From Aldrovandia affinis (Eukaryota; Chordata; Actinopteri; Notacanthiformes; Halosauridae): a DNA stretch of 64,000 nt. The notes beneath the pieces were generated by a model. That model worked only from the letters and a program-made list of their open reading frames with translations. It did not search any database and was not told the origin of the DNA. Location: positions 2,984,675 through 3,048,674 of the forward strand of contig JAINUG010000047.1 in assembly GCA_029706075.1 (NCBI GenBank). The letters are read 5' to 3'. The translations under genes and the position numbers were made by a program. This document shows, piece by piece, positions 36,224-64,000 of this stretch. The first letter of the stretch is position 1; the number at the start of each line of letters is the position of its first letter.

Positions 36224-39200
36224 TACAAGGCAAGATAAATAATACTGTTGGTGATTTGACCTTTAAATGAGCCACTTAAAAATACAATTAATACAAAGTG
36301 AAAGTGTTTACCAAACACACAACAAGTAAACGGTCCTTCAGCCATAAAGGTTTTGCCTAGTACGTCCAAACGTTTGTCTTCTCTGGGTTTAAGCTACTCC
36401 CCCAAAACATTAAACTGGTCTTTTAACACCACAAATAACATGCAGATGGGCCACCTCCACCTGAAATATGGGAATTCTGATGGTCACACTACATCCCATC
36501 CACTGCAACTCAAAGGCATTGTTTGGAGGATCCTCTAAGAAACGTGGAGGGCTGTGTCAGCTGTGCTGGGATAACCACTGTTAGCGGAGGTGCCTGTGTG
36601 GCAGGAGCCAGTGACAGATGCTCTCCCTCCTGTCCGGGTGTGGTGGTATCACATACCACACGGCTGTCAGCAGACATCTGGTGGTCTCGGGTGGACCTCC
36701 GTGACGCTCTTTTCATCACAAAGGCACTTGTGTCTCACGGCTCATCGAAGAGCTGGGGATCCTATCTCCCTCCACGGATTGCTACGCAAAACCATGGCCT
36801 GCCCTGTTGTTCCAAGTGCCATCTGTGGTGCTTGCTCTAAGCAGTGAGGTCTTAGTTCTTTCCGGAGGGTGGCTTGAAAGCAGCAATGGTGTTCAACTGC
36901 AAACTTAGCATAAGAAAGCATCAACCTCAATATTTCTGGTATATGACAAAGGTTAATTACACCAGAATGTGGCTGTACGTCTCCTCTCATAAAATGTTGT
37001 TGAGCTACAACTGCTCTTCTGAACTGGAATCTCCACCTAGTTTTAGATACAGAATTCGGGATCTGTGTGAAGTGATGCCATGGAATTAAGCAACTGTATG
37101 AGTGCCAATACAACATGTAGCTAATGCTACAGTAAACTATATCTCAACCTAAGCATATTCCAGATAACAGTGATAAAAAATGCAAAAAGTAGGCTAATAA
37201 ATATGTGCAATATGTGCATTCAAAATTGAATTCAGAACATTAGCTTCCAGCACTGATATTATTGCAGTAATGAGCTGAATTCAACACACACTAACATATT
37301 TTATCCCAATGAGACCGAAGTTCTGTCTATGAAGGGTACACGTAGGGCCTCAGTCAGACTCGAGGGCATTACTCTCCCAGACTGAATATAGAACTTTGTA
37401 TGGAACCTCATGAATTGGGCCTTGTCTCCTTTAATGTGAGACCACTGGAGTTATGGAACTGAACATCAAACACACACAGAGCCACTGCCTCCTCAGTTCC
37501 CCTTCCTTTGGCTGCAGCTCAGTGTACACGTTTCAGGAAGTGGCCTCTGCCCTCCAGATCACATTTCTCTGAATGTAAAGCAACAGATGGCAGCTTTCTG
37601 GCTTTTTCAAAAACAAAAAAATGCAAAGGCACATGTGCTTGAATGTTTGGATAGTTATGTCACTTGTCTGTCCCCTCCCACCCCCGTTTCTGTCTCTCTC
37701 TATTTTATGTACAGTAGGAAAAGAGCTAAAAGCTATTTTGAGAGGCAATCCAAGAGCCGATCCTGGATCAGGTTTCCAATCATTACCATAACCCCAATTA
37801 TTATGTGAAAAGATTATCTGCTCAAGAATCAGTGCTGGGCAGAATCGAACTACACCTTATGATGCCAGGGCAGTAGATCTATCACCACAACCTTTCAGGT
37901 TTGATCTTTTTCAACATTAAATTAACTGACAAAAGAGGTCTTATAACAGATGAATTGGCCAATTAACATTGTCCGATTGTTTCACAAAGACAATCAAATG
38001 TGCATTTTTTCCCCTGTAACAAAACACCAGTCAGACATCAAAATAGAATCCCATCATATTGTAAACGGTGTAAATAAGTTCAGTAGTAATGAATGTTAGC
38101 TTAGCCACATCGTATGCTAAGTAAGCTTGGGGGTTGCCATTATTGTTGCCGTTAATTGTTATGTGTTCAGTCTCCCATAATTCCTTGTGTCATTGAGTGG
38201 ATTAGTGTTGTAACCACATATATGTTTCCTTTTGTAAGCATGACTGTGTTTGTACGTCTAAGAAGTGACCCCCGTGAGTTTCTCGTGTTCTTGGTTGTGC
38301 CCTGCGTCTATAAGCTTTATTGCAGTCAATCTGGTAGCGCAATCATGGAAAAGCATACTTTTGAAGTATGTTTCTTAGTAGGAGTCTTCCTTCAGCAGTT
38401 GCCGTTAAATACAGTATGTGTTGATTTACATCCATGCAACTTCGCCCCGTGTGCCCCACCTTCTGTCCCGTATTTGGATGATAGAAAGTTAGCAACCCTA
38501 ATCAAAACAGGCGTCAGAATTAGCATACTTGAATCGGACTAGCCTATATTTATTTACTTTCATTATATGTATACACAAACCATAATTCATTATGCTACTG
38601 GCTACTTCTGGGGTCAGATAAGGTGAAGTGAAGTTCTTACCCGAGGTGAATGTGTGCCCATAGTGAATTACAAATGAAGCTTAAATTTGTTTACAGAAAA
38701 ACGTATAATGTAGAAACAGCTCGGACAATATTTGTCTAATATTTTGAAAAAGGCTATATCACATGATGTATTTACATTTTAAACCACATACACTACTGTG
38801 CATATAAAGGTTATAGAATGCCTCAGTATTAAGTGATTGGCCCGATGTTAAATTAGATGTAGGCGATTGGTTACGTGTAAATGTCAAGGAAAACTACTGG
38901 ATTGCATATTTTAACAACGTAACTGGTACTGATATTATCTTATACCAATTGAAAGACAAACTTCCAATGACGAGTGAGTAAGTAACAGAAAAAGATTGCC
39001 ATTAAAAATGCTAAGTAAACATTTAGGTACATAATTGGACTCAAAATAACAAAGTTACCCATATGCTGTCTTTTGTTTTTGACTGTCTCTTCTCTGGAAG
39101 AGGATTCGTTTCTTTGTTACCCAGGTGATGGCGGGAGAGAAGCAAACGAGTGATGAAAACATCACTCGCTGCACTGGCTTTGTCTTACCTCGTGCAGGCG

Positions 39201-40046
39201 CTTCTTGGCTCTCTGGAGCGCGTCCTCGTATCCCTTTTGTCTTAGCTCGCTCAAACTCTGGTAGTACTCCTCCGGGTCGTCGCTCTCGGTGAATAGTACT
39301 TGGGAAAGAATCTTCCATCCGCAAGTGTCCAGTGCGTGACTTAGGTAGACCTGTAGCTGGTAGCAAAGTGTATCCATCTCCGTTTGAGTCACCTCCGGAG
39401 GTCCAAACAACACCGTCCACATCCCCGAGGGCTCCTCTGGGAGAGGAGGCAAGCATGGTTCCAGGTCCGAATTTACGGAGCACATCTGAAGATGAATTAC
39501 TCTCAAGTCCTGGAAGGAGAAAAGTCCAGCCCAGCTACAGTCCTCTCTGGAGTTGTGCTCAAAGTCTTCGGAATCTGAGTTTTCGCCTAGTTCTGCGGCG
39601 TTGTGCTCACCTTTTATTAGATCCAAAATCTCAATGTCCATCACTCTGGTGGGGCTTTTGACCCTTGATCCCGCAACCTTACTGACACTTTTAACTGAAC
39701 TCGAGACCCCTGCTGCGGTTCCTCGCGTGTGACTTTTTTCGTCGCGTTGTCGACCTTTGGTCCTGTTTTGACTGCCACCATCATCCTTTTCTTTTACGGA
39801 ACTTTTTAAACTTTTGTGTTTACCCTCTGTCGCTCCGACCCCAGCCGCTGATGTGCCCTCTGCTCCAGGGTCCATGGCAACGCTCCGTCTCTGCACGGTT
39901 CTGTTGTGACATGTGATCGCAAACTTCCCTTCCACCTCATTCCAAGCCACAATAAAAACGAATTTGTGCCTTTCCTTTTCCTCAAAAACATTTGGTCGAA
40001 CGGCAACCCATCCCAACTCCAAGTTATCTTCCATTGTGAAGGACAT
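285..40046 (-). CDS. jmy: JMY, junction-mediating and regulatory protein; 5' part of gene (coding exons 1-7)
   Basis: Span of seven coding exons: 40046-39189, 21609-21436, 9484-9334, 4442-4273, 3966-3801, 2098-1923, 362-285. All introns are GT-AG and all phases match, giving 591 codons. JMY is a p300/p53 cofactor that nucleates actin through C-terminal tandem WH2 motifs plus an Arp2/3-binding tail and shuttles between nucleus and cytoplasm; that part lies left of the window. Seen here are the conserved N-terminal region ([34 protein letters not shown]) and the long helical, coiled-coil middle ([45 protein letters not shown]). The related WHAMM shares this architecture, but local residues ([13 protein letters not shown]) and the neighbouring BHMT gene favour JMY. 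Introns 1 and 2 (17.6 and 12 kb) hold most of the repeats. Confidence 0.93.
1108..1191. repeat. (CA)n microsatellite
   Basis: About 80 bp of uninterrupted then slightly interrupted CA dinucleotides in JMY intron 6. Apparent reading frames over it are low-complexity artefacts. Confidence 0.98.
1354..1500 (+). mobile_element. tRNA-derived SINE with L2-type tail, copy 1
   Basis: The tRNA-like head has an A box (TGGCTCAGTTGGTAGAGCA) and B box (GGGTTCAATTCCC), followed by a body and the tail GTCGCTTTGGATAAAAGCG, TCTGCTAAATG. The tail can fold as CGCTTT/AAAGCG around a GGATA loop. Three more copies lie at 10143, 27900 (minus) and 36053. Confidence 0.9.
1923..2098 (-). CDS. jmy: JMY coding exon 6 (residues 507-565)
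   Basis: 176 bp; the donor is AAG|GTACAG. Encodes [14 protein letters not shown], a divergent acidic stretch, then [14 protein letters not shown] and YLRNKK. In the gene's sense the acceptor (GTACAG|AG) directly follows a TG/TCTG repeat and three TGTGCATC units rather than a pyrimidine tract. That is unusual and could weaken recognition. Skipping this exon would shift the frame, since 176 is not a multiple of 3. Confidence 0.93.
2102..2192. repeat. Compound CA/CAGA microsatellite abutting a JMY acceptor
   Basis: Three ACAGATGC units, then CAGA and ACAGAC units, then ~(CA)16. In JMY sense it reads (TG)n-TCTG-TGTGCATC x3 and ends at the exon 6 acceptor CAG. Confidence 0.95.
3801..3966 (-). CDS. 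jmy: JMY coding exon 5 (residues 452-506)
   Basis: 166 bp; acceptor CTGTCTCAAAG, donor ACAG|GTGAGTG, phase 1 out. Encodes [20 protein letters not shown], then [20 protein letters not shown] and [13 protein letters not shown]. Strong heptad periodicity fits the central coiled coil. Confidence 0.95.
4273..4442 (-). CDS. jmy: JMY coding exon 4 (residues 395-451)
   Basis: 170 bp; acceptor CTCTCCCCAG, donor GAG|GTAGCC. Encodes [19 protein letters not shown] and [20 protein letters not shown], ending HTLREE. This is core coiled-coil sequence, with [10 protein letters not shown] near-identical across JMY proteins. The intron to exon 5 is only 306 bp, the shortest in the gene. Confidence 0.95.
4604..5809 (-). 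mobile_element. Tc1-like DNA transposon in JMY intron 3, inactive
   Basis: About 1.2 kb flanked by TA, with imperfect terminal inverted repeats (CACTGCCCATCCAAAAA left; CAGGCAGTG right end). The transposase lies on the minus strand, with the C-terminal catalytic block [12 protein letters not shown] near 4,840 and helix-turn-helix remnants near 5,140-5,650. Frameshifts and stops break it. A CA repeat (4,580-4,601) abuts its left end. Confidence 0.85.
5862..5904. repeat. (CA)n microsatellite
   Basis: Perfect CA run just outside the right end of the Tc1-like element in JMY intron 3. Confidence 0.97.
5905..8741. other. JMY intron 3 interior, no gene seen
   Basis: No exon-like ORF with splice sites. 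The part 7,020-8,145 is less AT-rich, has TTTATTTATT near its start and a strong nested hairpin near its end, and looks like a single inserted repeat of unknown class. The ~130-residue open frame near 7,421-7,819 (+) resembles no family I know. Confidence 0.5.
7981..8073. repeat. Triply nested inverted repeat (possible cruciform/RNA hairpin)
   Basis: Three concentric perfect arm pairs: GGCCTTTGGAGC (7981-7992) with 8062-8073; TTCCGGG (7997-8003) with 8046-8052; CACTCTCACA (8012-8021) with 8025-8034 around a 3-nt CCC loop. No gene is associated; function unknown. Confidence 0.85.
8742..9289. mobile_element. Non-autonomous hAT-type MITE
   Basis: Ends CAGTGGTTCTCAAACTCGGT and its inverse, with ~50-bp matching termini (both contain the TGGGGACC and ACCAGCAT segments in inverted order). 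The flanking 8 bp, CACTAGGG and CACTAGAC, agree at six positions, consistent with an aged hAT target duplication. It sits 45 bp from JMY exon 3. Confidence 0.85.
9334..9484 (-). CDS. jmy: JMY coding exon 3 (residues 345-394)
   Basis: 151 bp; acceptor TGTCCCTCAG, donor AAAG|GTAAGCC, leaving phase 1. Encodes [12 protein letters not shown], then [19 protein letters not shown] and [14 protein letters not shown]. This is the JMY segment in which Leu-Gly-Pro-Arg-Arg and the (V/I)QD(L/F)TVKYFEIT block are invariant. The split codon joins exon 4 as Val. Confidence 0.94.
10143..10291 (+). mobile_element. tRNA-derived SINE, copy 2
   Basis: Same head (A box TGGCTCAGTAGGTAGAGCA) and tail as copy 1. One arm of the tail hairpin is mutated (GGATAAATGCG). 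Confidence 0.88.
10300..17829. other. JMY intron 2 interior, no gene or clear repeat seen
   Basis: 7.5 kb of AT-rich sequence with short open frames only, none with a recognisable domain. There is a T20-G8 run at ~15,395-15,421. Repeats too old to see by eye are likely. Confidence 0.5.
17831..17870. repeat. (TA)n microsatellite
   Basis: About 20 TA units, directly followed by a Tc1 transposase fragment. Confidence 0.97.
17871..18020 (+). pseudogene. Tc1-like transposase fragment
   Basis: Open frame ...[19 protein letters not shown] then [10 protein letters not shown], resembling the second helix-turn-helix region of Tc1-like transposases (RxxRxNRRAT). It ends at a stop and no inverted ends are seen. 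Too short for more than a family-level call. Confidence 0.6.
18021..21090. other. JMY intron 2, no gene seen
   Basis: AT-rich with scattered short frames. A 38-bp segment is duplicated at 59-bp spacing (20,799-20,836 and 20,858-20,895). Right after it, 20,896-20,940 carries a degraded minus-strand piece of the fish repeat described at 51,752. Confidence 0.5.
21091..21275 (-). mobile_element. CR1-like LINE 3' fragment
   Basis: The minus-strand frame contains [14 protein letters not shown], the C-terminal motif of CR1 reverse transcriptases, matching the larger fragment at 21,965-23,030. It is severely 5'-truncated and followed by an (AAT)n run. Confidence 0.75.
21276..21319. repeat. (AAT)n microsatellite
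   Basis: About 14 AAT units at the end of the CR1 fragment, ~115 bp from JMY exon 2. Confidence 0.97.
21436..21609 (-). CDS. jmy: JMY coding exon 2 (residues 287-344)
   Basis: 174 bp, phase 0 at both ends. The acceptor is CCACCTCACAG and the donor AAG|GTGAGAG. It encodes [19 protein letters not shown] and then the highly conserved [20 protein letters not shown], ending RKQQIK. This begins the helical region that in JMY/WHAMM forms the coiled coil. Confidence 0.95.
21965..23030 (-). mobile_element. CR1-like LINE, 5'-truncated reverse transcriptase
   Basis: The minus strand encodes pieces of a CR1-type RT in order: [61 protein letters not shown], then [20 protein letters not shown]. Stops and frame breaks make it dead. 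The 3' end reads GTTCTTATGTTCTTATGT, a short repeat tail. Confidence 0.85.
23240..23430 (-). mobile_element. tRNA-derived SINE (second family)
   Basis: Minus-strand head GGGGCTAGCGGATAGCG with B box GGTTCGAAACC, a spacer, and a tail containing GATTGGGAGAAAAA. The tail is shared with the SINE at 56,790-57,198, whose head differs. Confidence 0.7.
23431..24763. other. JMY intron 1 segment, no gene seen
   Basis: No recognised repeat or exon; short frames only. Confidence 0.45.
24764..25300 (+). mobile_element. hAT element 5' part with BED zinc-finger remnant
   Basis: Begins CTAGGGGTGTAACGGTACA, a hAT-type terminus. Downstream (25,029-25,131, +) the frame reads [19 protein letters not shown] then ITHLRRM and stop: a BED-type finger (C-x2-C ... 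H) that ends where the second His is expected. No right end is found. Confidence 0.65.
25315..26875. mobile_element. Non-autonomous hAT element with long internal inverted arms
   Basis: Termini CAGTGGCGGGCCGT and its inverse (ACGGCCCACCACTG), flanked by a perfect 8-bp target duplication GTTGAAAG (25,307-25,314 and 26,876-26,883). Inside are two nearly identical inverted arms, 26,307-26,456 and 26,672-26,822, separated by 215 bp. No transposase seen. A small nested MITE occupies 25,364-25,519. Confidence 0.92.
25364..25519. mobile_element. Small hAT-like MITE nested in the larger hAT element
   Basis: Ends CAATGGCGTAGCG and CGCTACGCCTATG; flanking 8-mers GCTCTGCC and GCTCCGTC agree at six positions. 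Same family as 62,477-62,826, with which it shares GCTGAGACCAG and GGTTTCAT segments. Confidence 0.75.
27900..28037 (-). mobile_element. tRNA-derived SINE, copy 3 (minus)
   Basis: Minus strand: A box TGGCTCAGTTGGTAGGTGC, B box GGGTTCAATCCCC, then the common body. The tail lost the second hairpin arm (GTCGCTTTGGATAAATGGC). Confidence 0.87.
28193..28560. mobile_element. Probable hAT element 5' end
   Basis: Starts TAGGGGTGTGACGGTATACC with an immediate partial repeat (GGTATGACGGTATACC), typical of fish hAT termini. The other end is not identified, so the boundary is a guess. Confidence 0.4.
28561..31830. other. JMY intron 1 segment, no gene seen
   Basis: Contains a (TG)n run at ~29,908-29,938 and otherwise only short frames without recognisable domains. 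Confidence 0.45.
31832..32720 (-). mobile_element. Tc1-like transposon with internal deletion
   Basis: Long (~80 bp or more) terminal inverted repeats: TTTAGAACACCC and CAGTTCAAGTCC recur inverted at both ends, and the right end is followed by TA. The minus-strand transposase N-terminus is present ([38 protein letters not shown]), but the catalytic half is missing. Confidence 0.85.
32723..36050. other. JMY intron 1 segment, no gene seen
   Basis: AT-rich. A G-run cluster sits at 34,100-34,130. No exon or repeat that I can name. Confidence 0.45.
36053..36192 (+). mobile_element. tRNA-derived SINE, copy 4
   Basis: A box TGGCTCAGTAGGTAGAGCA, B box GGGTTCAATTCCC, tail GTCGCTTTGGATAAAAAAGC with two extra A; runs into a (TA)n repeat. 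Confidence 0.9.
36187..36220. repeat. (TA)n microsatellite at SINE end
   Basis: About 17 TA units forming the simple tail of SINE copy 4. Confidence 0.95.
36225..39188. other. JMY intron 1 proximal segment, no gene seen
   Basis: Frames at 36,523-37,116 (both strands) and 38,156-38,542 (+, 128 codons) have no recognisable domain and no splice context. The tRNA-like minus-strand stretch at ~37,835-37,900 (GTAGTTCGATTCTG) may be an old SINE head. Confidence 0.4.
39189..40046 (-). CDS. jmy: JMY coding exon 1 (residues 1-286)
   Basis: Starts at ATG 40046 ([10 protein letters not shown]), matching the family N-terminus. An in-frame ATG eight codons upstream (40070) gives an extension not expected in JMY, so I prefer 40046. 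The first ~55 residues are the conserved WHAMM/JMY N-terminal block. Residues ~60-150 are a low-complexity Ser/Lys/Gly-rich linker ([17 protein letters not shown]), and an acidic stretch ([12 protein letters not shown]) precedes the helical part. The exon ends KKRLHE with donor GAG|GTAAGAC, phase 0, the position where JMY continues with L-(I/L)-(E/D)-KH. Confidence 0.93.
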
Positions 40047-40850
40047 CGTTTCACATCGGCAAACTTGCAAACTACTAACTCTCTTTTAGCTGTTCCGAAA
40101 ATTAAATAAACTACAAATGGATTAGCTTACTATCTGGCTAACTTAACGTTGCCTGGTAAAATTGGCCGGCCAACTTGAGCTAGCTTTACGTTTTACAATT
40201 GTAAACGAGTCCGATTAATTAAAACAGCAGTTAGCCAGCTGCATCACCAAGCCAATATCATACAATATCCACAATTGCCTTTCTCTTGCAAATCAAAACG
40301 AATATTTTAAACTGGTCCCGCAGTTGCCATCTCTTCCCCACCAGCGTATCCTTATCATCCAAACTATTTAGCTAGGTCGCTTGCTAGCTACCTGATATAA
40401 CCACAGAAGGCCCTTTTGTGCTCTCATTAAAACCCTTCAGGCTCCAGACAATGCGGACGGTTATCGTCACGTGTGTGGGTCTGTTTACACGACACAGAGT
40501 GAGCAGCTTGCAAGAGCCCTGCTGTCAAATGGTTTGTCTTTTCTTCATCCCTCTCAACTGCAGTGTCTCCGTTGCTTGAATCCTTCATAAACTTTAAATA
40601 ACCGGACCTTCCAGTCGCCTGGATATCCTATTTAAATCGGTCGAATTCTCTGCCAAACGTTGCCACATCATTGTTTTGCTTTTGTTCCCCAAATTTTACC
40701 GAATATTTTTTGGTTTTCTTGGTCATGTATTTCGCTCCACATCTCTCCCTACCAATGTTTTCATCTGACGAGCTTTGCTGACGTAGTAAGCATGTGCATG
40801 TAGGATAACGCAGTGAACGTGGTGACGTAACGAACGTGGCAGAGGCTGGG
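40047..40850 (-). promoter_or_regulatory. JMY 5' flank, probable promoter and 5' UTR region
   Basis: About 800 bp upstream of the JMY start codon is free of recognisable repeats, unlike the rest of the intergenic DNA. It contains two cAMP-response-like TGACGTA motifs (around 40780 and 40823). No TATA box is obvious. The transcription start cannot be placed. This is inference from position plus motifs. Confidence 0.3.
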
Positions 40851-41549
40851 ACACATCACGATATAACCACAAGAGGACCGCTCTTGGAACAGACAGAAAA
40901 GAGCAAACCAGACGCCAAAAATGTGACTGTCAGCGCTTCTTGTTTATATATGATGTAGCCTAAAATATAACACTGCTGAATACAGCTTATCGATTTTGTA
41001 GTATTGCAATGGAACAATGGAAATTAGAAGCAAGTGTTAGCTAAAACAGTTCCCGCATCCTGGGGACTATGTACTTGATTTCAGGAAATTATGGAAAACA
41101 TTTACATCCTAAAGCTTTTTTCCATTGTGGTTCATTTGGTTTGCTAAATTTTTAGCATTCTTCAGCACCTTTGTGAAATTTTGCGTGCCATCTTTGCCTA
41201 TTGAGTCCACCCTGGTTCAGGAGGGTGTTACAGAACTATGTTAATGCAGTTTTGAGGGGTGAAAAGAATAATGGGAGATAATATATAACAATTAAAATAA
41301 TATTTTACTTGTTGTGGGCATGGGACTGGATGTGGGACTGATATGCAAAAACCCACCACTAGTTTGCATTGCTGTAAAACTTAATTTTGGTCTCATCTGA
41401 CCATAACAATCAGAGTTGGATTTTGCATCAGAAGAAGGACGCTTATGTTGAAAATAAGCTATATCTATGGTGAAATATGGTGGTGGATCTTTGGTGTTAT
41501 GGGGTTGTTTCACATTCACTGGTCCTGGGACTCTTGTTAAAGTCAATGG

Positions 41550-42495
41550 AAACATTTACATTTTACATTTTAAGCATTTAGCAGACGCTCTTATCCAGAG
41601 CGACTTACAAGATGTGCATCAATACATGGTAGGAACAATCACAGTTAGCGCACGAGATCAGTGCAGGAATACAGCAATAGACATCATTGCAGGCATCTGC
41701 GTACCATACCTGTAACACCGGGAAGGAAAAGGTATTTTACATTTAATTTTTTATTTTTTTTATTTAATTTTTTTATTTTTATAAAGAGTAGTGTTGAACA
41801 AGTGAACAGTGGTGAAGACAATTTAGCTAGATGGACAGAGATCAGGGGTAGTGGAGTCTGAAGAGGTGGGTTTTGAGTCTCTTGCGGAAGATTGGAAGTG
41901 ATTCCGCAGTCCTGACCGACTGCGGGAGGTCGTTCCACCAACGAGGGACCAGGACAGAGAAGAGGCGAGACCGCGAGGAGCGGCTGCCAGGCGCCCGGAG
42001 GGATGGGGCAGTCAGTCTGCCAGCAGAGGCGGAGCGGAGGGGTCTGGACGGGGTGTAGGGCGTGATGAGTGACTGGAGGTATGGGGGAGCAGTACCTCTG
42101 GCCGCTTGAAAAGCAAGCACCAGTGACTTGAATCTGATGCGTGCTGCGATGGGGAGCCAGTGCAGAGAGGAGAGTAGAGGGGTGACGTGGGTGAACTTCG
42201 GCTGGTTGAACACCAGGCGAGCAGCAGCGTTCTGGACTAGTTGCAGTGGCTTGATGGCACAGGCCGGAAGGCCTGCCAGCAAGGAATTGCAGTAGTCCAG
42301 ACGTGAGATCACCAGGGCCTGGACCAGGAGTTGAGTGGCCTCTTGGGTGAGGAACGGTCGGATCCTCCGGATGTTGTGGAGGGAGAAACGGCAGGTCCGA
42401 GTGATCGCTGCAATATGGCTCGAGAAGCACAGCTGGTTGTCCAGGGTTACCCCAAGACTCCTGGCAGACTGGGACGGAGACACTATGGAGCCTTG
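41550..42495 (-). mobile_element. L2-type LINE, 5'-truncated, copy A
   Basis: Minus frame of ~220 codons: SARSLGVTLDNQLCFSSHI, LDYCNSLLAGLP, LQLVQNAAARLVFNQP, SSLHWLPIAARIRFK, ending [17 protein letters not shown]. This is the C-terminal part of an L2-type reverse transcriptase polyprotein, left open. The 3' tail (41,550-41,610, minus) reads GTCGCTCTGGATAAGAGCG, then TCTGCTAAATG and (ATGTAAA)n. Inserted into Tc1 between VNGN and NSNKYQ. Confidence 0.9.
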
Positions 42496-42736
42496 AACTC
42501 CAACAAGTACCAATACATTTTGTCCAAAAATCTGGTTCCCTCTGCCAGGAAGCTGAAACTTGGGATCATTGCCTTGTTAAAAGATCAATTTGCAGTCAGG
42601 CATACCTCAAAATCAACAGAGAAATAGTTAATTGACCACAAAATTATTGTTTTCCAATGGCCATCTCAGCCTCCAGACTTGAACCTGATTTAAAATGTGT
42701 GATTTGAATTGAAATGGGCAGGATATATGCAGGTGG

Positions 42737-42963
42737 TATATGCCTCCCTGGCATATTTCTGCATGTCCCATGTGATAATAGCTCTTGTTTCTAATGCTAC
42801 AGAAGAATTGTAGTGTATTATCACCGACATGAATGTTTTAAACCAGGGGTGTCCAATCTTATCCAAAAAGGACTGGTGTGGGTGCAGGCTTTTGTTTTAG
42901 CCCAGCACTAAAACACTAATTCAACTAATCAAAGTCTTGATTGATTCCATGATTCATTGATCA
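42737..42963 (-). pseudogene. Copied BHMT exon-7/intron-6/MITE segment inside a Tc1
   Basis: Colinear with 56,071-56,292, roughly 90% identical by eye. It contains the first ~60 bp of BHMT exon 7 ([20 protein letters not shown] against [20 protein letters not shown]), the acceptor (CTGTAG here), ~45 bp of intron 6 and the left half of a MITE. The flanks are Tc1 transposase sequence on both sides. No other BHMT exon is nearby, so this is a fragment, not a second gene. Confidence 0.88.
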
Positions 42964-43760
42964 AGTATCTGAAGGATCTTGAAAGATTCTGTATGGAGGA
43001 ATGGTCAAAGATCCCCTCAATATGCTCACCAATCTTGTAAAACACTTTAGAAGATGAAATGGCATATATTATATTGACATGTGTTGGGAATCTTCTCCCT
43101 TTGTGGAACCAAGTCGGGACCGGCGAAGTAACTCACTGGTGACCACTTTACAATTGAAAAGGTTTTATTACAATGCACAAAGGCAAATCTCAACTCAGTA
43201 ACTGTTTAAGTACCCTTGTCCGAGGTGTTGCAGTTGCCCAGTGTGCACATCCCCGGCAGGGAATACACATCACACCCAGACGTCCTGGAGGCCCTCATTT
43301 GGTATACTGCTTTTACATATCCTTACAGTTAACAATTGAACCCTGTATGTGACCATTTGTCCCTAACAATGTGATGGGTGCTGCGGAGAGTGTGTGTGTA
43401 AATGTGTACGAGGAATGAAGATAAAACAAAAACAATTTAAATAGAATAAAACAATCTATCAATCTGAGGGTTATACTAATTCTAAATTTCATAACTCAAA
43501 CCTATCATGTTAATGCAGATTGTTGTTTATTATTATTATTTAGGGGTGTTAATAATTGTGACACATTTTTGGGGGAAAAATATATTACTTGTTTAAAAAA
43601 TATAAATTTTTTCTGAGGAACTGAATTAGTATAAAATAATATTATTTTTGGATTTGTTTTGAGCATACAATACAGCACATTACCCGTATTGCTTATTTTA
43701 TTCAGCCTTTTTTGCTCAGCTTTATCAAGGGTGTGAATCATTTTAGAGTTGACTGTATAT

Positions 43761-44870: not shown

Positions 44871-47132
44871 TAGCGAAGATGCGCGATGAGGTGTAACAAG
44901 AAGGCGACTTCAGGCAAGAAGGCAAGCAGTAAGGAAAATGTGGCTATGTGCGTCATACACCGCAAAGCCCCAATAGCCACTTTATTAAAAACAAACAACA
45001 TGGGCGATACTGTGTCCCATACACCGCACGACCCCAAATGTCGCCTTTGGTTCTATCTTTTCAACGGGCGCTCCCCGAACGGCTCACGCAGGGCGCACAT
45101 TGGCCAACATGGAAAACGTCACACAGGAAGTAGGGGAGACCGGGGTAAGATGTGCCACAAGGTAAGATGAGACACTCCTTGTTTCTAAGCAACCATACAC
45201 AAAATAAAGCATGTGACAGCATTTTCAGGAAGAAGCAACCATTTAATTCAATATATGGTAAAGGGGAGCACATGGAGAAAGTGGTAAGCAATTTATGTCC
45301 AAAAATGTGATTTGACCCTTTATACATGAATTCCAAAGAAGTCCACTGTTATGATGATTTTGAGAAAACTGAAGTAGGAGAATTTTCTGATACATTATAG
45401 TTCAGTTGGTGCTCTTATAAGCTATGATATGACAGCTGAACAAAAGCATATAAGTTAGTCTTAGCTGTTGTTTGAAGCCACTTTTTCAAAATGGTGGGGG
45501 TGGGGAAAGATGAGGCACCAGGCCTGGGGTAAGTTGAGCCATTGGCTCAACTTACCCCATACATATGACACATACAGTATTTGTATTTATTGTCAGAATG
45601 ATCTGCATAAATGGCATACATGTATTCCTTATGTAAAAATACAGAGAATGCATATGGTAGTCATTTATGAGAAAGTACATATACCATGTATTTAGAGAAC
45701 ATATAAATCATGAAAAGTACAGAAGAATTGGTGCCTTTTCATGATACAAAATATAATATATAAATGCATGCACACAAATGGCCCGCGGCTGCGGTGGGCA
45801 ACTTGTGAATGCTTAGAACCGAGATAGCATCAAAGTCAACAGAAAGAATAACTATTCTGTGTCAATGGCAGGAAAACCACAGAATTCGCTCTAACAAACG
45901 TGTCAAGATTAAGTACGTAGGAGAAAAAATATATATTGGTTGCACGATTGGCTTGAACTAAGTTACTTCCAAATTGCCATGTACTGGATGTCTGATATCC
46001 TTTACCAGTAGGCTCTCGTGGAATTGGTAGTGCCAATGCCATAGGGCCACACTGCCATGAGATTTTAAATTGGTAAGTAATAGCATTTTTTAATAATTTG
46101 GCTTCAGTGATGGATGAATATTTATTTTATTCTTCACAAAAAAACTGCCCATTTATGATGTGTTTAACTAAATATATTACTTTTCATTTTAGATTCAAGT
46201 TCCTGCCAAACATGATCTATAACATGAATGAGAGTGGCATCAAAAATGTGCAGTCTCCAAAACAAATAGTGACGGAGAAGGGGAGAAAACAAGTTGGTTC
46301 AGTGACATCAGGAGAAAGAGGGGAGCTAGTTACACTTGTTTGTGCAGTCAGTGGGGAATGTGATTCCACCAATGTTCATCTTCCCACGTGTCCGTTACCA
46401 TGATCATTTCATCAGAGTATCTCCCATAGGCTCTATTGGTTGTTCCACCAAGTCTGGTTGGACAAATGAGAACGCATTTGTCCAATTCTTAGAGCATGTA
46501 ATCAGGCACACCAACTGCTCTAGAAGTAACCCCCTGTTGCTCATCCTGGATAACCACAAGTCTCACATCACATTGAAGGCTGTCAAGTTAGCAAAGGAGA
46601 ATGGCATTGTGATGCTCACTCTGCCAAATACTATGTATTTTGTCCACTCACAAAAATTAAATGTCTTAATTTGTTTTTATTTGCACCAATTCAACAGATA
46701 GAAGAAATGTCTCAGACTGGCTCAACTTACCCCACTCCTTGGCTCATCTTACCCCATGCATGGGGTAAGTTGAGCCAAAAGATAAACTTTTTTTCAGACA
46801 GCATATCTATGAAGAGGCATATCTATCTTCCAAAGAGGCACAACACCTTAATATTGCAAAGAAAAAACTATTTGACTCAGCAACATAATGAAAAAAGTAA
46901 AAAATGGCACATCTTACCCTGGTCTCCCCTACAATGAATGCTGAACCCGTTCTGCATAGTAAAACAGGCAACCGCAGTATACAGCAAATAGCTATCGGTT
47001 TAACACACACCGAAACAGGGGAAAACACACACAACATTACTTACAGGCATGCAACAATAACCAACACACAACAATGTTCCCCCACAATGCCCTGCACACA
47101 TATTTACAATAGCGACCATGGTGGATCGCTAC
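44871..47132 (-). mobile_element. Candidate solo LTR interrupted by a pogo-like element
   Basis: Outer ends TGTAGCGA and TCGCTACA. Without the 1.8-kb insert the unit is ~460 bp. On the minus strand it carries TTTTTAATAAAGTGG, an LTR-like poly(A) signal. A clear target duplication is not visible, so an LTR origin is inference. Confidence 0.35.
45133..46929 (+). mobile_element. pogo/Tigger-like DNA transposon, copy A
   Basis: 1,797 bp flanked by TA, with terminal inverted repeats GGGGAGACCGGGGTAAGATG and its near-exact inverse. Transposase DDE part on plus: IYNMNESGIKNVQSPKQIV, QVGSVTSGERGELVTLVC, then after a frameshift SGWTNENAFVQFLEHVI and LLLILDNHKSH. It lacks the helix-turn-helix N-terminus that copy B has and stops before the third catalytic residue. 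The first catalytic Asp (usual NMDETG) is Asn. Confidence 0.9.
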
Positions 47133-49990: not shown

Positions 49991-50739
49991 GACTATTGGG
50001 GAAGTAGTAGCCTGGTGACCACTCTACTCGCGTAGCCATTTTTGCAACGCAGCTGGACTCTGTGTGACTTGTTGATACATCACCTCGTGCATGCTCACTA
50101 CAATATGCTGGCTGGAAAAAAAATATTTGGGCTCAATTTACCCCATAAGCCAGTCTGAGACATTTATTCTATCTGTTGAATTGGTGCAAATAAAAACAAA
50201 TTAAGACATTTAATTTTTTTGAGTGGACAAAATGCAGATTTGTCCAATGGCTGCAAGTGCTGTGATGTGTGGGGAGGCAGAGTGAGCATCACAATGCCAT
50301 TCTCCTTTGCTAACTTGACAGCCTTCAATGTGACTCATGGTTATCCAGGATGAGCAACAGAGGGTTACTTCTAGAACAGTTGGTGTGCCTGATTACATGC
50401 TCTAAGAATTGGACAAATGCATTCTCATTTGTCCAACCAGACTTGGTGGAACAACCAATAGAGCCTCATGGTAACGGACACGCGGGAGGAGGAACATTGG
50501 TGGAATCACATTCCCCACTGACTGCACAAACAAGTGTAACTAGCTGCCCTCTTTCTCCTGATGTCACTGAACCAACTTGTTTTCTCCCCTTCTCCGTCAC
50601 TATTTGTTTTGGAGACTGCACATTTGTGATGGCACTGTCATTCATGTTATAGATCATGTTTGGTGGGAACTTGAATCTAAATTGAAAAGTAATACAGTAC
50701 CAGTCAAAAGTTTGAGTACACCTGCTGGAAACTAGGTTT

Positions 50740-52127
<1,388 letters not shown>

Positions 52128-53115
52128 TACGTTTCTTTCAATACTTGAAAATTACAAAAAACATATGTAACGATAAACAAAAGGAACATCAAAGCAATGT
52201 TCAATCAAATTTAATTGAAAATGGAATCTTGGATTCCTCAAAATAGCCACCCTTTGCTGTGATAACAGCCTCACAAACACGGGCCATTTGGTTAATAAGT
52301 TTCAGCCGGAAATCACCCAATATGTCTTCCCAGCTCTCCTGCAGCAATTCCCAGAGGCACTTGTGGGTTGCTTTGCTTTGACTGTTCTGTCCAGTTCATC
52401 CCATACAAGTTCTATGGGATATATGAGGTCTGGACACTGGGCAGGCCAGGTCCTTAGTTTGAGTTGTCCTTCACGTTCCCCCTTCACCAGATAGTTCTTG
52501 CACAACTTCAAGGTGTGTTTCGGGTCGTTATCTTGCTGAAGAATGAAGGAGTGCCCACTTAGCCGTAGTCCAGGTGGAAGGTGTACTCAAACTTTTGACT
52601 GGTACTGTATATTTAGTTAAACACATCATAAATGGGCAGTTTTTTTGTGAAGAATAAAATAACTATTCATCCATCACTGAAGCAAAATTATTTAAAAATG
52701 CTTATTAAAAGCTGTGGCCCTTCCCAGTGATGTTGCCTGTGGTGTACGGCTTGACAACTATTGTACGGCTGTCAATAGCAGTTGACTTAGGTTAGTATCA
52801 TGGAAATGTCTGGTTTTGTCAATTAAATACTGCCTTTTCATTCAATTACTTCTAAAACTGACCTGCTTTCATCTCTGGACCAGCTTTCTGGCATTTTCAC
52901 TCTGTTTTGCTTTGCATATTCATAAGCCAGCTCTCTACATTTCAGAGGACTTAGCCCATGGAACTGGTTAGACAGCTTCTTAATATGGCAGGCAAGCTCT
53001 AGCTCCATGGTAGCGTCAAACACCATATGCAATGTTGAAAGTCTTGCATATCCTACAGATGCTGACTCTCCATCCTTTCTTTTCTGAATGAATTGTTTCA
53101 GAGTCACAAGAAATG

Positions 53116-53165
53116 TAAAACTGGATAAGAGTGTCTGCTAAATGCCTATGTAAATGTAAAATGTA
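53116..53165 (+). mobile_element. Extremely truncated L2 tail
   Basis: About 45 bp matching only the last part of the L2 tail (GGATAAGAGTGTCTGCTAAA then TGTAAATGTAAAATGTAA). Inserted in the first transposase exon of pogo copy B between KIDQ and MTLKQF. Confidence 0.75.
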
Positions 53166-53825
53166 ATTTGGTCAATCTTAAACTGTTTTGCAACTGATCT
53201 TATTGATCTCCCTTGCCCTACTTCTTCATTTGCTCTTTTCAGATCATCAAGGGAGTTTGATGCTCTCTCTGTTGTCCGTTTATAAGACCGTGGCATCCTG
53301 AAATCTGCTCTGTAATAATAGGGGGGAAAGCAGAACTTAACTTTAGAGTTGTATGCCATTCATGCAGATAATTTTGACAATAAATACAAATACTGTGTGT
53401 CATATGTATGGGGCTCAACCTACCCCAGGCCTGGTGGCTCATCTTTCCCCACCCCCACCATTTTTAAAAAGTGGCTTCACACAACAGCTAAGACTAACTT
53501 CTATGCTTTTGTTCAGCTGTCATATCATAGCTTATAAGAGCACCAACTGAACTATAATGTATCTGAAAATTCTCCTACTTCAGTTTTCTCAAAATCATCA
53601 ACACTGGACTTCTTTGGAATTCATGTATAAAGGGTAAAATCACATTTTTGGGCATAAATTACTTACCACATTCTCCATTTACCACATGTCCCCTTTACCA
53701 CATATTGAATTAAATGGTTGCTTCTTCCTGAAAATGCTGTCACATGCTTTATTTTGTGTATGGTTGCTTAGAAACAAGGGGAGTCTCATCTTACCTTGTG
53801 GCACATCTTACCCCGGTCTCCCCTA

Positions 53826-54680: not shown

Positions 54681-54762
54681 TCACTTCTCTGGGGTTGCCA
54701 TGGAGGGACACTTTGGCCGCCCTGATGCAGGCAGTAGCTTCTCCCAGTAGTCACGAGAAGCC
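54681..54762 (-). CDS. bhmt: BHMT-family last coding exon 8 (residues 341-367 and stop)
   Basis: 82 bp; acceptor TTCTCTTTTCACCAAG. Encodes [27 protein letters not shown], then TGA at 54683-54681. Joining WIRLR|ASRDYW restores the family sequence. In BHMT the protein runs on with a D-G-W-G-V-T-K tail that mediates dimer/tetramer contacts; here it ends as in BHMT2 (LLPASGRP, then a short tail). AATAAA on the minus strand at 54501-54496, 180 bp past the stop, is the nearest candidate poly(A) signal; another is at 54413-54408. Confidence 0.9.
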
Positions 54763-57700
54763 CTTGGTGAAAAGAGAAGGTGGACTATTACTTGGCACAT
54801 TCCAGCCAATGAGGAAAATCTTGACCATGAAGACAAAAGTCACAGGCAATTCTTTATTAAAGTACTTTCAATCAACTATTCTAGAAATCATAAATACTTT
54901 ACATTTTACATTTACATTTGAAGCATTTAGCAGACGCTCTTATCCAGAGCGACTTACAATATGTGCATTAACACATGGTAGGAACAATCATAGTTCGCGC
55001 AAGAGATCAGTGCAGTAATACAGCGATAGACATCGTTGTAGGCAGCTGCATACCATATCTGTAACACTGGGAAGGAAAAGGTTAGTCTTTTATTTTTATT
55101 TTTATGAGGAGTCAGCAGGTATATATAAACAAAAAGTATTGAACAAGTAGGCAGTGGTGATAACAATCGGCTAGATGTACAGAATTCAGTGGTAGTGGGT
55201 TTTGAGTCTCTTGCGGAATATCGCAGACAGAGTGACTGAGAAGAGGCGAGACTGCGAGGAGTGGCTGCCGGGTGCACGGAGGGATGGGACAGTCAGTTTG
55301 CCAGAGTAGGCGGCGGAGGGGTCTGGCAGGGGTGTAGGGTGTGATGAGTGTATAAACTTTATAAATGTATTTTTTCAGTGTTCATTCAGTTTAAATAAAA
55401 GTATTCCTGGATCATTCCCAGCATGCGTTCTATCACCCACATCGCCAATCCACAGCACACACACCATTCACTATATATAGTTTAGACTCTTTGCCTAGTC
55501 TGTCTTTGATGGGTCATGACACGGGAGAACATGCAAAGTGAGTTCAAAGACCTTCTTGCTGTACTTTCCACTGCACCACCGGTAATCACACATATACAGT
55601 AAAAGTTTCAGTCTGTGATGGGTCTGTTATCTTTATCAGGGCATCTGTGATGAAAAATCTAAATGGATGAAACCTTTGTTCTTTATTTACGATAGGACAA
55701 TGACATTTTATTGGAGTTCCAGGGTCATTTTTTTTAAAAAGAACTACTATATTAGATCAAATAAATAAAAGTATCTAACAGGGGTGACCAAGTTAAGATG
55801 CTAAGGGACGTAAGAATACGTCCACCCCTGATCTTCATCATTGTCTGGCCTGATTCCAATCTGCTCAGTCAAAAAAGGACCTTCTTTGCAAAGGATCTCA
55901 CCTCAATCTGATCCAGGGCTTTGGGTGATGTTCCAGGGCGCCCCCCCACGGTGCATGCTTCTCTGATGCTGGAGGTAAGAAGCCCCTCTCAGGTGCCAAC
56001 TCCTCTGCCAAAGCACGGATGTGGTAGGGCTCGAACCCGCAGCAGCCACCAATATAGCGGATTCCCGCATTATATGCCTCCCTGGCATATTTCTGCATGT
56101 CCCATCTGGTGATAGCTCTTGATTCCAATGCTATAGAAGAATTGTAGTGTATTATCATGAATGTCTTAAACCAGGGGTGTCCAATCTTATCCAAAAGGAC
56201 TGGTGTGGGTGCAGGTTTTTGTTGTAGCCCAGCACTAAAACACCTGATTCAAGTAATCAAAGTCTTGATTTAATGCCATGATTCATTGATCAGTTCAATA
56301 AGGTGTTGTCAGGCTACAACAAAAACCTGCACCCACCCTGACCCTTCTCCGATAAGATTGCCCATCCCTCTTCTAAACATATTAAAAGTATAATAGGTTT
56401 GGAATATTTTATTGTGGGGATATGTTTATGCTTATCTCAAATCAATGGGTCCTGTCTTGCTTCTTACCAAAGGGGAATTCTGGGAGGCTGATGTACCCTC
56501 CGTGATTGCACTCGGGAGTGTGGAAGCCCAAGGGCTGGACCATCAGGTGAGCTTTCAGTTTTGCAGCCTCCAGACCCTCCTTCATAAGCTTCACCGTCTT
56601 CACGCCACACATGGGGTCCAAGTGGCAGTTGACCCCAACAATGTTGGCACCTGGTCCACACAAAGTCTCATGCTGAAATTCAGTTTTACCTCATTGCATT
56701 TTGTCTTTTTGCCTTTATCTCTGAGTGATTCATTTCAGCAAGAAGTATCTTCTTTGTTTCGTACATATATATATATTTTTTTAAAGATTTTGTTTCTGAT
56801 TTTCTCCAATTTTCTCCCAATTTAGTAGCCAATTAAACCCGCTGTTTTTATGTCAATCCCCCCCAGTAATGTGAGTTTGCTGCCGTAGTCCTGCGACCGG
56901 TAGTGACGAACGCGAAGTAACATCTCCTCCGAGATGGAGGAGTTACTCCGAGATGGAGTTACTCCGAGATCTCCTTCCGAGATGCGAAGTAACACCTCCT
57001 CCTCCTCCTCCACCGAACGTAACCCGGTACTACAGGGCCACTTTTATGCACAGCGAACGTCATGTCGCCTTCCCTCCCAATCGCAATCGCCGCCCCTGCT
57101 GCCACTCCCAGCCAGAGCCGACTCTGGTGAGACGGGGAATCGAACCCCGGTCTCCGTGGCCAGTGTCGAATGTTGTAACCACTGGACCACACGGGAGGCC
57201 GTTTCGTACATATTTTGTGTTCATTTCAGTGACTATAATACTCATAATGTTTTGCAAGACAAAGTGAGGACCAAGTGCTTCATGGTTAGACTTAATCTGA
57301 GCTCCAGGAACCTGAACTATGCTACCTTTTTTCTGTTTAACAGCAACATTGAGGTTTTGAGTTTTCAGTCTGGCCATAACACAATGGGAAAGAAAACCAC
57401 ACTAAGGAGGGAAAATATTCCTAAAACTCTACAATCACCCTTTTTTGGAACCAACTTTAACCCAGATGTTTTCTATTTATCTCATAATTATAAATATTGT
57501 ACTTATAGGATTGTCTAATTGCTGCAAAAGCATTCATAAATTCAGGAGAGTGCAGACAAGCATGCAAAGCTCCTCCAAAGCATATTCTACCAGCTGCTGC
57601 TTCTTTTCACACCTCAGTCCACTAGCTGAGCTGTGCAGTCACTGCATGGGGGAGTACACTACACATACAACTGGCACAGGCAGACCACAGGCACCCAATC

Positions 57701-63535: not shown

Positions 63536-63892
63536 ATTACGCACAGAAACCCAGTTCGCAGACCCTTCAGATGCACCTTGAATGAGAGCTCGGTGAAGCT
63601 GGAAGTGACGAAGTGAAGTGTTACTGACTGCAGTCCCCCTGCAAAAGGTTTCGTTTAACTTGCAAACAAGCACGCGCGCGCGTACATAGGACCCTATCCC
63701 ACCGTTGCAACGGCCTTATTAACGAACTCAAAGTGCAAAATCAGAGCACCAGACGATTAACACACAAGTGAGTGTCAAGCCATGTCAAATAATAGGCCTA
63801 TGTAATTTAACGTATGAAACTAACAATGTGATCCTTACTCAATATATTAATGCAGTCATCCATACTACGGTTTCATGTAAAAACAAAAACAT

Positions 63893-64000
63893 TACATTTA
63901 CATTTTAAGCATTTAGCAGACTCTCTTATCCAGAGCGACATACAAGATGTACATTTATACATGGTAGGAACAATCAGTTTGCGCAAGAGATCAGTGCAGT
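63893..64000 (-). mobile_element. L2-type LINE 3' end, copy C (cut by window edge)
   Basis: Tail GTCGCTCTGGATAAGAGAG on minus followed by TCTGCTAAATGCTTAAAATG; the same family as copies A and B, upstream of the BHMT-family gene. Confidence 0.88.

Follow-up and report, generated by a model that had tools for sequence, protein, structure and literature searches.

A BHMT exon–intron segment within a decayed Tc1 element of Aldrovandia affinis, probably copied during repair of a break

Helitrons and Pack-type/Pack-TIR elements capture gene fragments, and gene pieces lodged within transposons can also be viewed against a background of DNA repair. The closest described case comes from the human genome, where Pace et al. 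(2009, PLoS Genet; PMC2671141) counted 1,136 repair-mediated duplications in interrupted transposons, 824 of them with a donor within 5 kb. The breakpoints inspected in that study carried deletions of 1–15 nt, filler of 1–68 nt, and microhomology of 2–9 nt. Four human donors were partial exon/intron sequences, and 80 such duplications were counted in zebrafish. Of 29 inter-chromosomal pairs examined there, 17 resembled retrotransposition products, carrying poly(A)/T; no inspection as a class was made of the 58 pairs that share a chromosome but lie more than 5 kb apart.

Two other systems are relevant. At Tc1 breaks in Caenorhabditis elegans, polymerase theta makes templated inserts with single-nucleotide homology (PMC4490562). 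Human templated sequence insertions have been divided into class 1, attributed to LINE-1, and class 2, which are break-repair patches (PMC5110952). A limited literature search returned no fish study of repair-mediated duplication in transposable elements beyond PMC2671141, and others may exist.

Here we describe a locus in a 64,000-nt stretch of a contig from the fish A. affinis (hereafter the window), in which a short piece of the gene BHMT interrupts a Tc1 transposon 13 kb away from that gene.

The copied segment and its BHMT donor

Positions 42737–42963 (227 bp) are a colinear, same-strand (plus/plus) match of positions 56071–56292, with 207 of 229 columns identical (E = 8e-85; blastn within the 64-kb window), which confirms the match proposed in the first-pass annotation of this DNA. 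In a global alignment, the copy and the donor differ by 13 substitutions in 220 aligned bases (5.9%; K2P 0.062) and by nine gap columns, six of which form a single stretch in the intron. The two segments lie 13,107 bp apart on one contig and on the same strand. As judged from blastn, the BHMT translation match, and a genome search, the donor, whose gene is read from the minus strand, holds a BHMT exon start, the splice acceptor, intron sequence, and 121 bases from the beginning of a MITE.

The copy reproduces this arrangement, as the first-pass annotation had described it. Translation and alignments place the truncated exon start at 42737–42796 (minus strand), followed by the acceptor AG and by intron to about 42843. 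The MITE part (42844–42963, plus strand) corresponds to the MITE of the BHMT intron from its left arm through most of its loop region, and genomic MITE copies match about 42837–42954. Differences between copy and donor amount to 5 of 63 positions on the exon side (60 exon and 3 intron bases), 2 of 38 in the intron, and 6 of 119 in the MITE. The earlier statement that the exon and intron parts are equally diverged is therefore fair within such small numbers (5/63 versus 2/38).

The donor gene is identified as BHMT because the joined translation of the two exons flanking the intron matches solved BHMT chains (E = 3e-75). A further exon was found at 54687–54761 (minus) with a BHMT C-terminus as the query, and the remainder of that C-terminus was not found within the window. 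Thus, as far as can be seen from the exons found, the copy sits downstream of the BHMT gene. This last exon (54684–54761, minus) reaches a stop codon soon after the residues SMATPEK, earlier than in the query C-terminus. Elsewhere in the window, a long open reading frame at 39162–40085 (minus) resembles exon 1 of JMY, which is the usual vertebrate neighbour of BHMT.

A query spanning 42700–42845, which covers the Tc1 edge, the exon, and the intron but almost no MITE, had two candidates in the 1.22-Gb genome, and both matched: the copy itself and its donor. Unlike this exon/intron part, the MITE part of the copy is by nature repeated in the genome. A search of the genome with BHMT protein placed exons at the donor gene and at two places on another contig, C58 (6 matches from 7 candidates), none of these matches being the short stretch of exon in the copy. 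Neither the protein search nor the 42700–42845 nucleotide search found further BHMT exons around the copy. A tandem second BHMT gene surrounding the site, which the first-pass annotation had named as a finding that would count against its reading, was looked for in this way and not found; the only paralogs detected are those on C58.

These paralogs are 76–77% identical at the exon studied. At two exon positions, both agree with the donor (ACCAGATGG) against the copy (ATCACATGG), and this shared state indicates that the two differences arose in the copy, not in the donor. The C58 region itself (1036884–1049500) carries two further BHMT-like exon sets about 9 kb apart, and one match in the first set has an in-frame TAA within the aligned stretch.

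The interrupted Tc1 element

Both sides of the copied segment are recognizable as parts of a Tc1 transposase coding sequence. The left flank (42496–42721, plus) is decayed, with stops in frame (its translation ends ...QWPSQPPDLNLI*NV*FELKWA), and aligns by tblastn to positions 51111–50887 of a Tc1 open reading frame located at 50746–51698 (minus). The right flank (42963–43061, plus) is a colinear continuation that overlaps the copy by one nucleotide (A) and is translated in a frame other than that of the left flank (LKDLERFCMEEWSKIP). Its alignment to 50862–50815 of the same reading frame covers 16 residues (E = 5e-4), and it also has matches elsewhere in the genome. The two flanks thereby align consecutively to the reading frame, 24 nt apart.

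A more upstream part of the same element (VKYGGGSLVLWGCFTFTGPGTLVKVNGN; 41470–41553, plus) also aligns to this reading frame by tblastn and is severed from the left flank by a repeat inserted at about 41550–42490. This second repeat, which we take to be LINE/SINE-like, has relatives at 54905–55350 and 63887–63999. Given this additional insert, the same Tc1 has been broken at least twice.

Profile searches with Pfam contributed little. The left flank gave a weak DDE_3 match (E = 0.07, below the cut-off for that family), the short right flank gave no match, and the upstream piece hit an unrelated repeat, PATR, below threshold (E = 0.023). Because these matches are weak, sub-threshold, or absent, we base the Tc1 identity of the flanks on the alignments and on familiar Tc1 motifs rather than on Pfam. 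Pattern scans for the Tc1 in a collection of viral contigs and in one of genome contigs returned 0 places each.

The genome itself was more informative. A search of the 1.22 Gb with positions 42600–43100, in which 40 of 5,666 first-look candidates were scored and very common words were skipped, returned at least 74 matches. At least 24 of these are other copies of the later part of the left Tc1 flank, and in 20 of the 24 among the matches listed the right flank follows close behind. The other four (L018, L025, L036, and L038), which have no right-flank match, leave or shorten the Tc1 at this site, and several more of the 24 have small deletions there. When fetched and aligned, all 24 listed copies lack the BHMT segment and carry 0–30 bases between the alignment columns of GGGCAG and ATCTGAAGG.

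Since the Tc1 flanks are contiguous and the segment is absent from the 24 listed copies, the alignments indicate that the segment entered a Tc1, rather than a Tc1 having entered a BHMT gene. The flanks had been called Tc1 transposase sequence from recognizable peptides, and both the consecutive alignment within the window and the genomic copies bear this out. The possibility that the flanks were not contiguous Tc1, which would have spoken against an insertion, can likewise be set aside on the evidence of the reading frame and of 20 of the 24 listed copies. The search for other Tc1 copies carrying the same segment, as had been suggested, yielded none among the 24.

Junctions of the insert

The column majority of the 24 listed Tc1 copies reads GGGCAG-TCCACAAGCGCAGACCG-AAGG-ATCTG, and the corresponding sequence in the window reads GGGCAG-GATATATGCAGGTGG-(copy)-AGTATCTG. 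At the right junction, the single nucleotide of overlap is the last base of the copy, an A that also fits the first A of AAGG.

The left junction is less simple. Between the recognizable Tc1 and the copy lie 15 nt (42722–42736, plus) that probably represent junction filler, replacing about 17 nt of Tc1; if so, the non-Tc1 stretch may start at 42722 rather than at 42737. These 15 nt are 10 edits away from the 17-base column majority of the Tc1, a distance that 48% of random 15-mers from the window also reach. They are six edits away from the nearest of the 17 listed copies that keep this stretch (L019), which is reached by 7% of random 15-mers, and six changes in 15 positions would have a probability of 0.002 at an assumed divergence of 10%. 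Somewhat less probably, 42722–42736 is unusually diverged Tc1, in which case the insertion occurred nearly without loss; the site is variable in this Tc1 family.

The first-pass annotation had noted a short TATATG identity at the left junction. The identity is real, but we dropped its reading as plain junction microhomology, because the word TATATGC forms a 7-nt direct repeat (42724–42730 and 42737–42743) whose second unit opens the copied donor sequence and whose first unit lies within the putative filler. TATATGC, a word picked after the fact, occurs at 54 of the 63,853 15-mer positions of the window, and 1,850 of the 63,853 window 15-mers (2.9%) have at least one 7-mer in common with the 60 nt surrounding the start of the donor. 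The filler also contains ATATATGC, which recurs on the minus strand within the 301 nt (42964–43264) to the right of the copy, and TGCAGGT, which recurs in the donor region; these two likenesses make the template of the filler ambiguous. A mismatch search of the window with the whole filler gave two matches, including itself, against 1.99 expected, and hence nothing beyond chance.

Origin of the insert

The explanation that we strongly favor is that the segment is templated filler, copied from BHMT when a break in the Tc1 was repaired. The same mechanism was put forward in the first-pass annotation and is strengthened by the single occurrence found, by the lack of retroposition marks, and by the results on the flanks and on a second BHMT gene. 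According to this model, a double-strand break would have occurred in a Tc1 copy already inserted, and would have been mended by error-prone, template-copying repair, which could have been synthesis-dependent strand annealing or a polymerase-theta-like end joining that drew on a distant template. With the BHMT locus, 13.1 kb away, as that template, one of the broken ends would have gained about 227 nt, with limits inside the exon and inside the MITE, after which the new strand would have been released and joined to the other Tc1 end at 0–1 nt of homology. The left junction probably lost about 17 nt of Tc1 and gained about 15 nt of filler, in which TATATGC may be the trace of an earlier, aborted attempt to copy the same template. 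The break and its repair pathway, the direction in which synthesis ran, the filler, and the present drift of the piece without function are inferences. Polymerase theta is a plausible enzyme, and the sequence cannot tell its action from strand-annealing repair.

Several other origins were weighed. Retroposition, including a processed retrocopy, is rejected: the copy keeps the BHMT intron, and neither a poly(A) nor a target-site duplication is seen in the sequence or in its alignment to the Tc1 copies, in agreement with the earlier reading. The same features, together with ends that do not fall at transcript ends as far as seen, weigh against a patch made by reverse transcription of an unspliced or antisense BHMT transcript into the break. 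The donor is genic, and the human class 2 insertions, which show the features of break-repair patches, are reported to be derived from RNA (PMC5110952), but DNA templating from a linked locus takes fewer steps and we consider the RNA route unlikely. A broken-off piece of BHMT DNA ligated into the Tc1 break without copying would look much the same, as a short insert with little junction homology; the intact donor means that such a fragment would need a sister or homologous chromosome as its source, which renders this origin very improbable.

Residence on the same strand and contig as BHMT could also be expected if BHMT had once been duplicated, in tandem or segmentally, and Tc1 had later invaded what was left of the second copy. 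Yet it is the segment that interrupts the Tc1 and not the reverse, the Tc1 resumes in register behind it, and the searches turned up no further BHMT exon at the site and located the other BHMT-like genes on C58. We therefore regard a duplication remnant as extremely improbable, and a tandem BHMT gene at the site is rejected on the colinear Tc1 flanks and the lack of further BHMT exons found there. The first-pass annotation had kept one alternative of its own, gene-fragment capture by the transposon, and the segment does lie wholly within Tc1 sequence, as it would if a mobile Tc1 had captured it and could have carried it. This idea gained no support. A single copy of the segment was found in the genome and none in the 24 listed Tc1 copies, the host element has in-frame stops and another repeat inside it, and with the donor 13 kb away on the same contig nothing needs to have moved. 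Capture is thus highly unlikely, and a mobile gene-carrying Tc1 is rejected within the reach of the genome searches, in which 40 of 5,666 first-look candidates were scored for the Tc1 query and one chimera was found. Because retroposition, tandem duplication, and a mobile chimera each fail their test, what remains is that a break was filled by copying from a nearby template.

The distance between template and break may have been shorter when the copying took place. Two elements between donor and acceptor (45131–46722 and 50148–53825), which we take to be Tigger-like, lie in opposite orientation and are 3.0–4.0% apart in substitutions, less than the 5.9% that separates donor and copy. This is only a hint, drawn from one region. 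The second Tigger-like element is itself interrupted by an insert with exact 32-bp inverted repeat ends (50692–50723 and 52579–52610), inside which the Tc1 open reading frame is found.

The right end of the copied tract falls in an unusual place. The MITE in the BHMT intron (56172–56370) is palindromic, with a predicted DNA fold of −53.6 kcal/mol compared to −20.2 for shuffled sequences (z = −11.2). The pair map predicts a long stem whose outermost pair is 56173–56369 and whose innermost pair is 56245–56301, enclosing a loop region (56246–56300) with small predicted hairpins of its own. The MITE end, CAGGGGTG, looks hAT-like to us. The copied tract ends at 56292, in the loop region and 8 nt before the second arm. 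It is conceivable, but in our judgment doubtful, that folding of the MITE stem ended use of the template after one arm and most of the loop, so that the palindrome set the tract end. A single case cannot show such a cause.

Comparison with known repair-mediated duplications

Much of this locus resembles the human duplications of PMC2671141. There, the inserts are at least 50 bp long and interrupt a transposable element whose parts are contiguous; here, 227 bp interrupt a Tc1 whose parts are contiguous in 20 of 24 listed copies. The inserted sequence has exactly one other place in the genome, as determined for 42700–42845 (2 of 2 candidates), and poly(A)/T and other marks of retrotransposition are lacking. 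In both settings a short copy from one donor sits in a transposon on the same chromosome, and partial exon/intron donors are known among the human cases. In contrast, the probable 17-nt deletion slightly exceeds the 1–15 nt of the inspected human breakpoints, although this deletion and the 15-nt filler are uncertain, and the right overlap of 1 nt falls short of their 2–9 nt. With 13,107 bp between donor and acceptor, the locus is of the same kind but lies outside the confident proximal class drawn at 5 kb.

The polymerase theta products of C. elegans (PMC4490562) share with this locus the single-nucleotide homology, a small deletion, a templated insert, and a Tc1 context. Their templates lie near the break and their breaks are Tc1 excision sites, whereas here the break is inside the Tc1 and the template of 227 nt lies 13 kb off. 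Like the human class 2 insertions of PMC5110952, the segment appears to be a patch templated from elsewhere and distinct from LINE-1 products; those are polymorphic in human and have distant donors, whereas this copy is old (5.9% substitutions) and shares a chromosome with its donor. As with Helitron or Pack-type capture, exon and intron pieces lie inside a transposon, but here one decayed copy was found and no multiplication was seen.

On these comparisons, we regard the locus as a new instance of repair-mediated duplication, a process already known in human, zebrafish, and other species. Its odd points are the 13-kb distance, the 1 nt of homology on the right, and a right end that falls in the loop region of a palindromic MITE. 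Because the mechanism has been described before, a single case is an added example rather than a principle. The MITE-loop endpoint offers a testable extra: if the palindrome did end synthesis, MITEs would act as brakes on repair synthesis and would leave chimeras of gene fragments and half-MITEs across genomes. More broadly, this one vertebrate genome illustrates how exon ends and splice sites can be dispersed by break repair among neighbouring repeats, where they would add modestly to the raw material for new exons and to false gene annotations.
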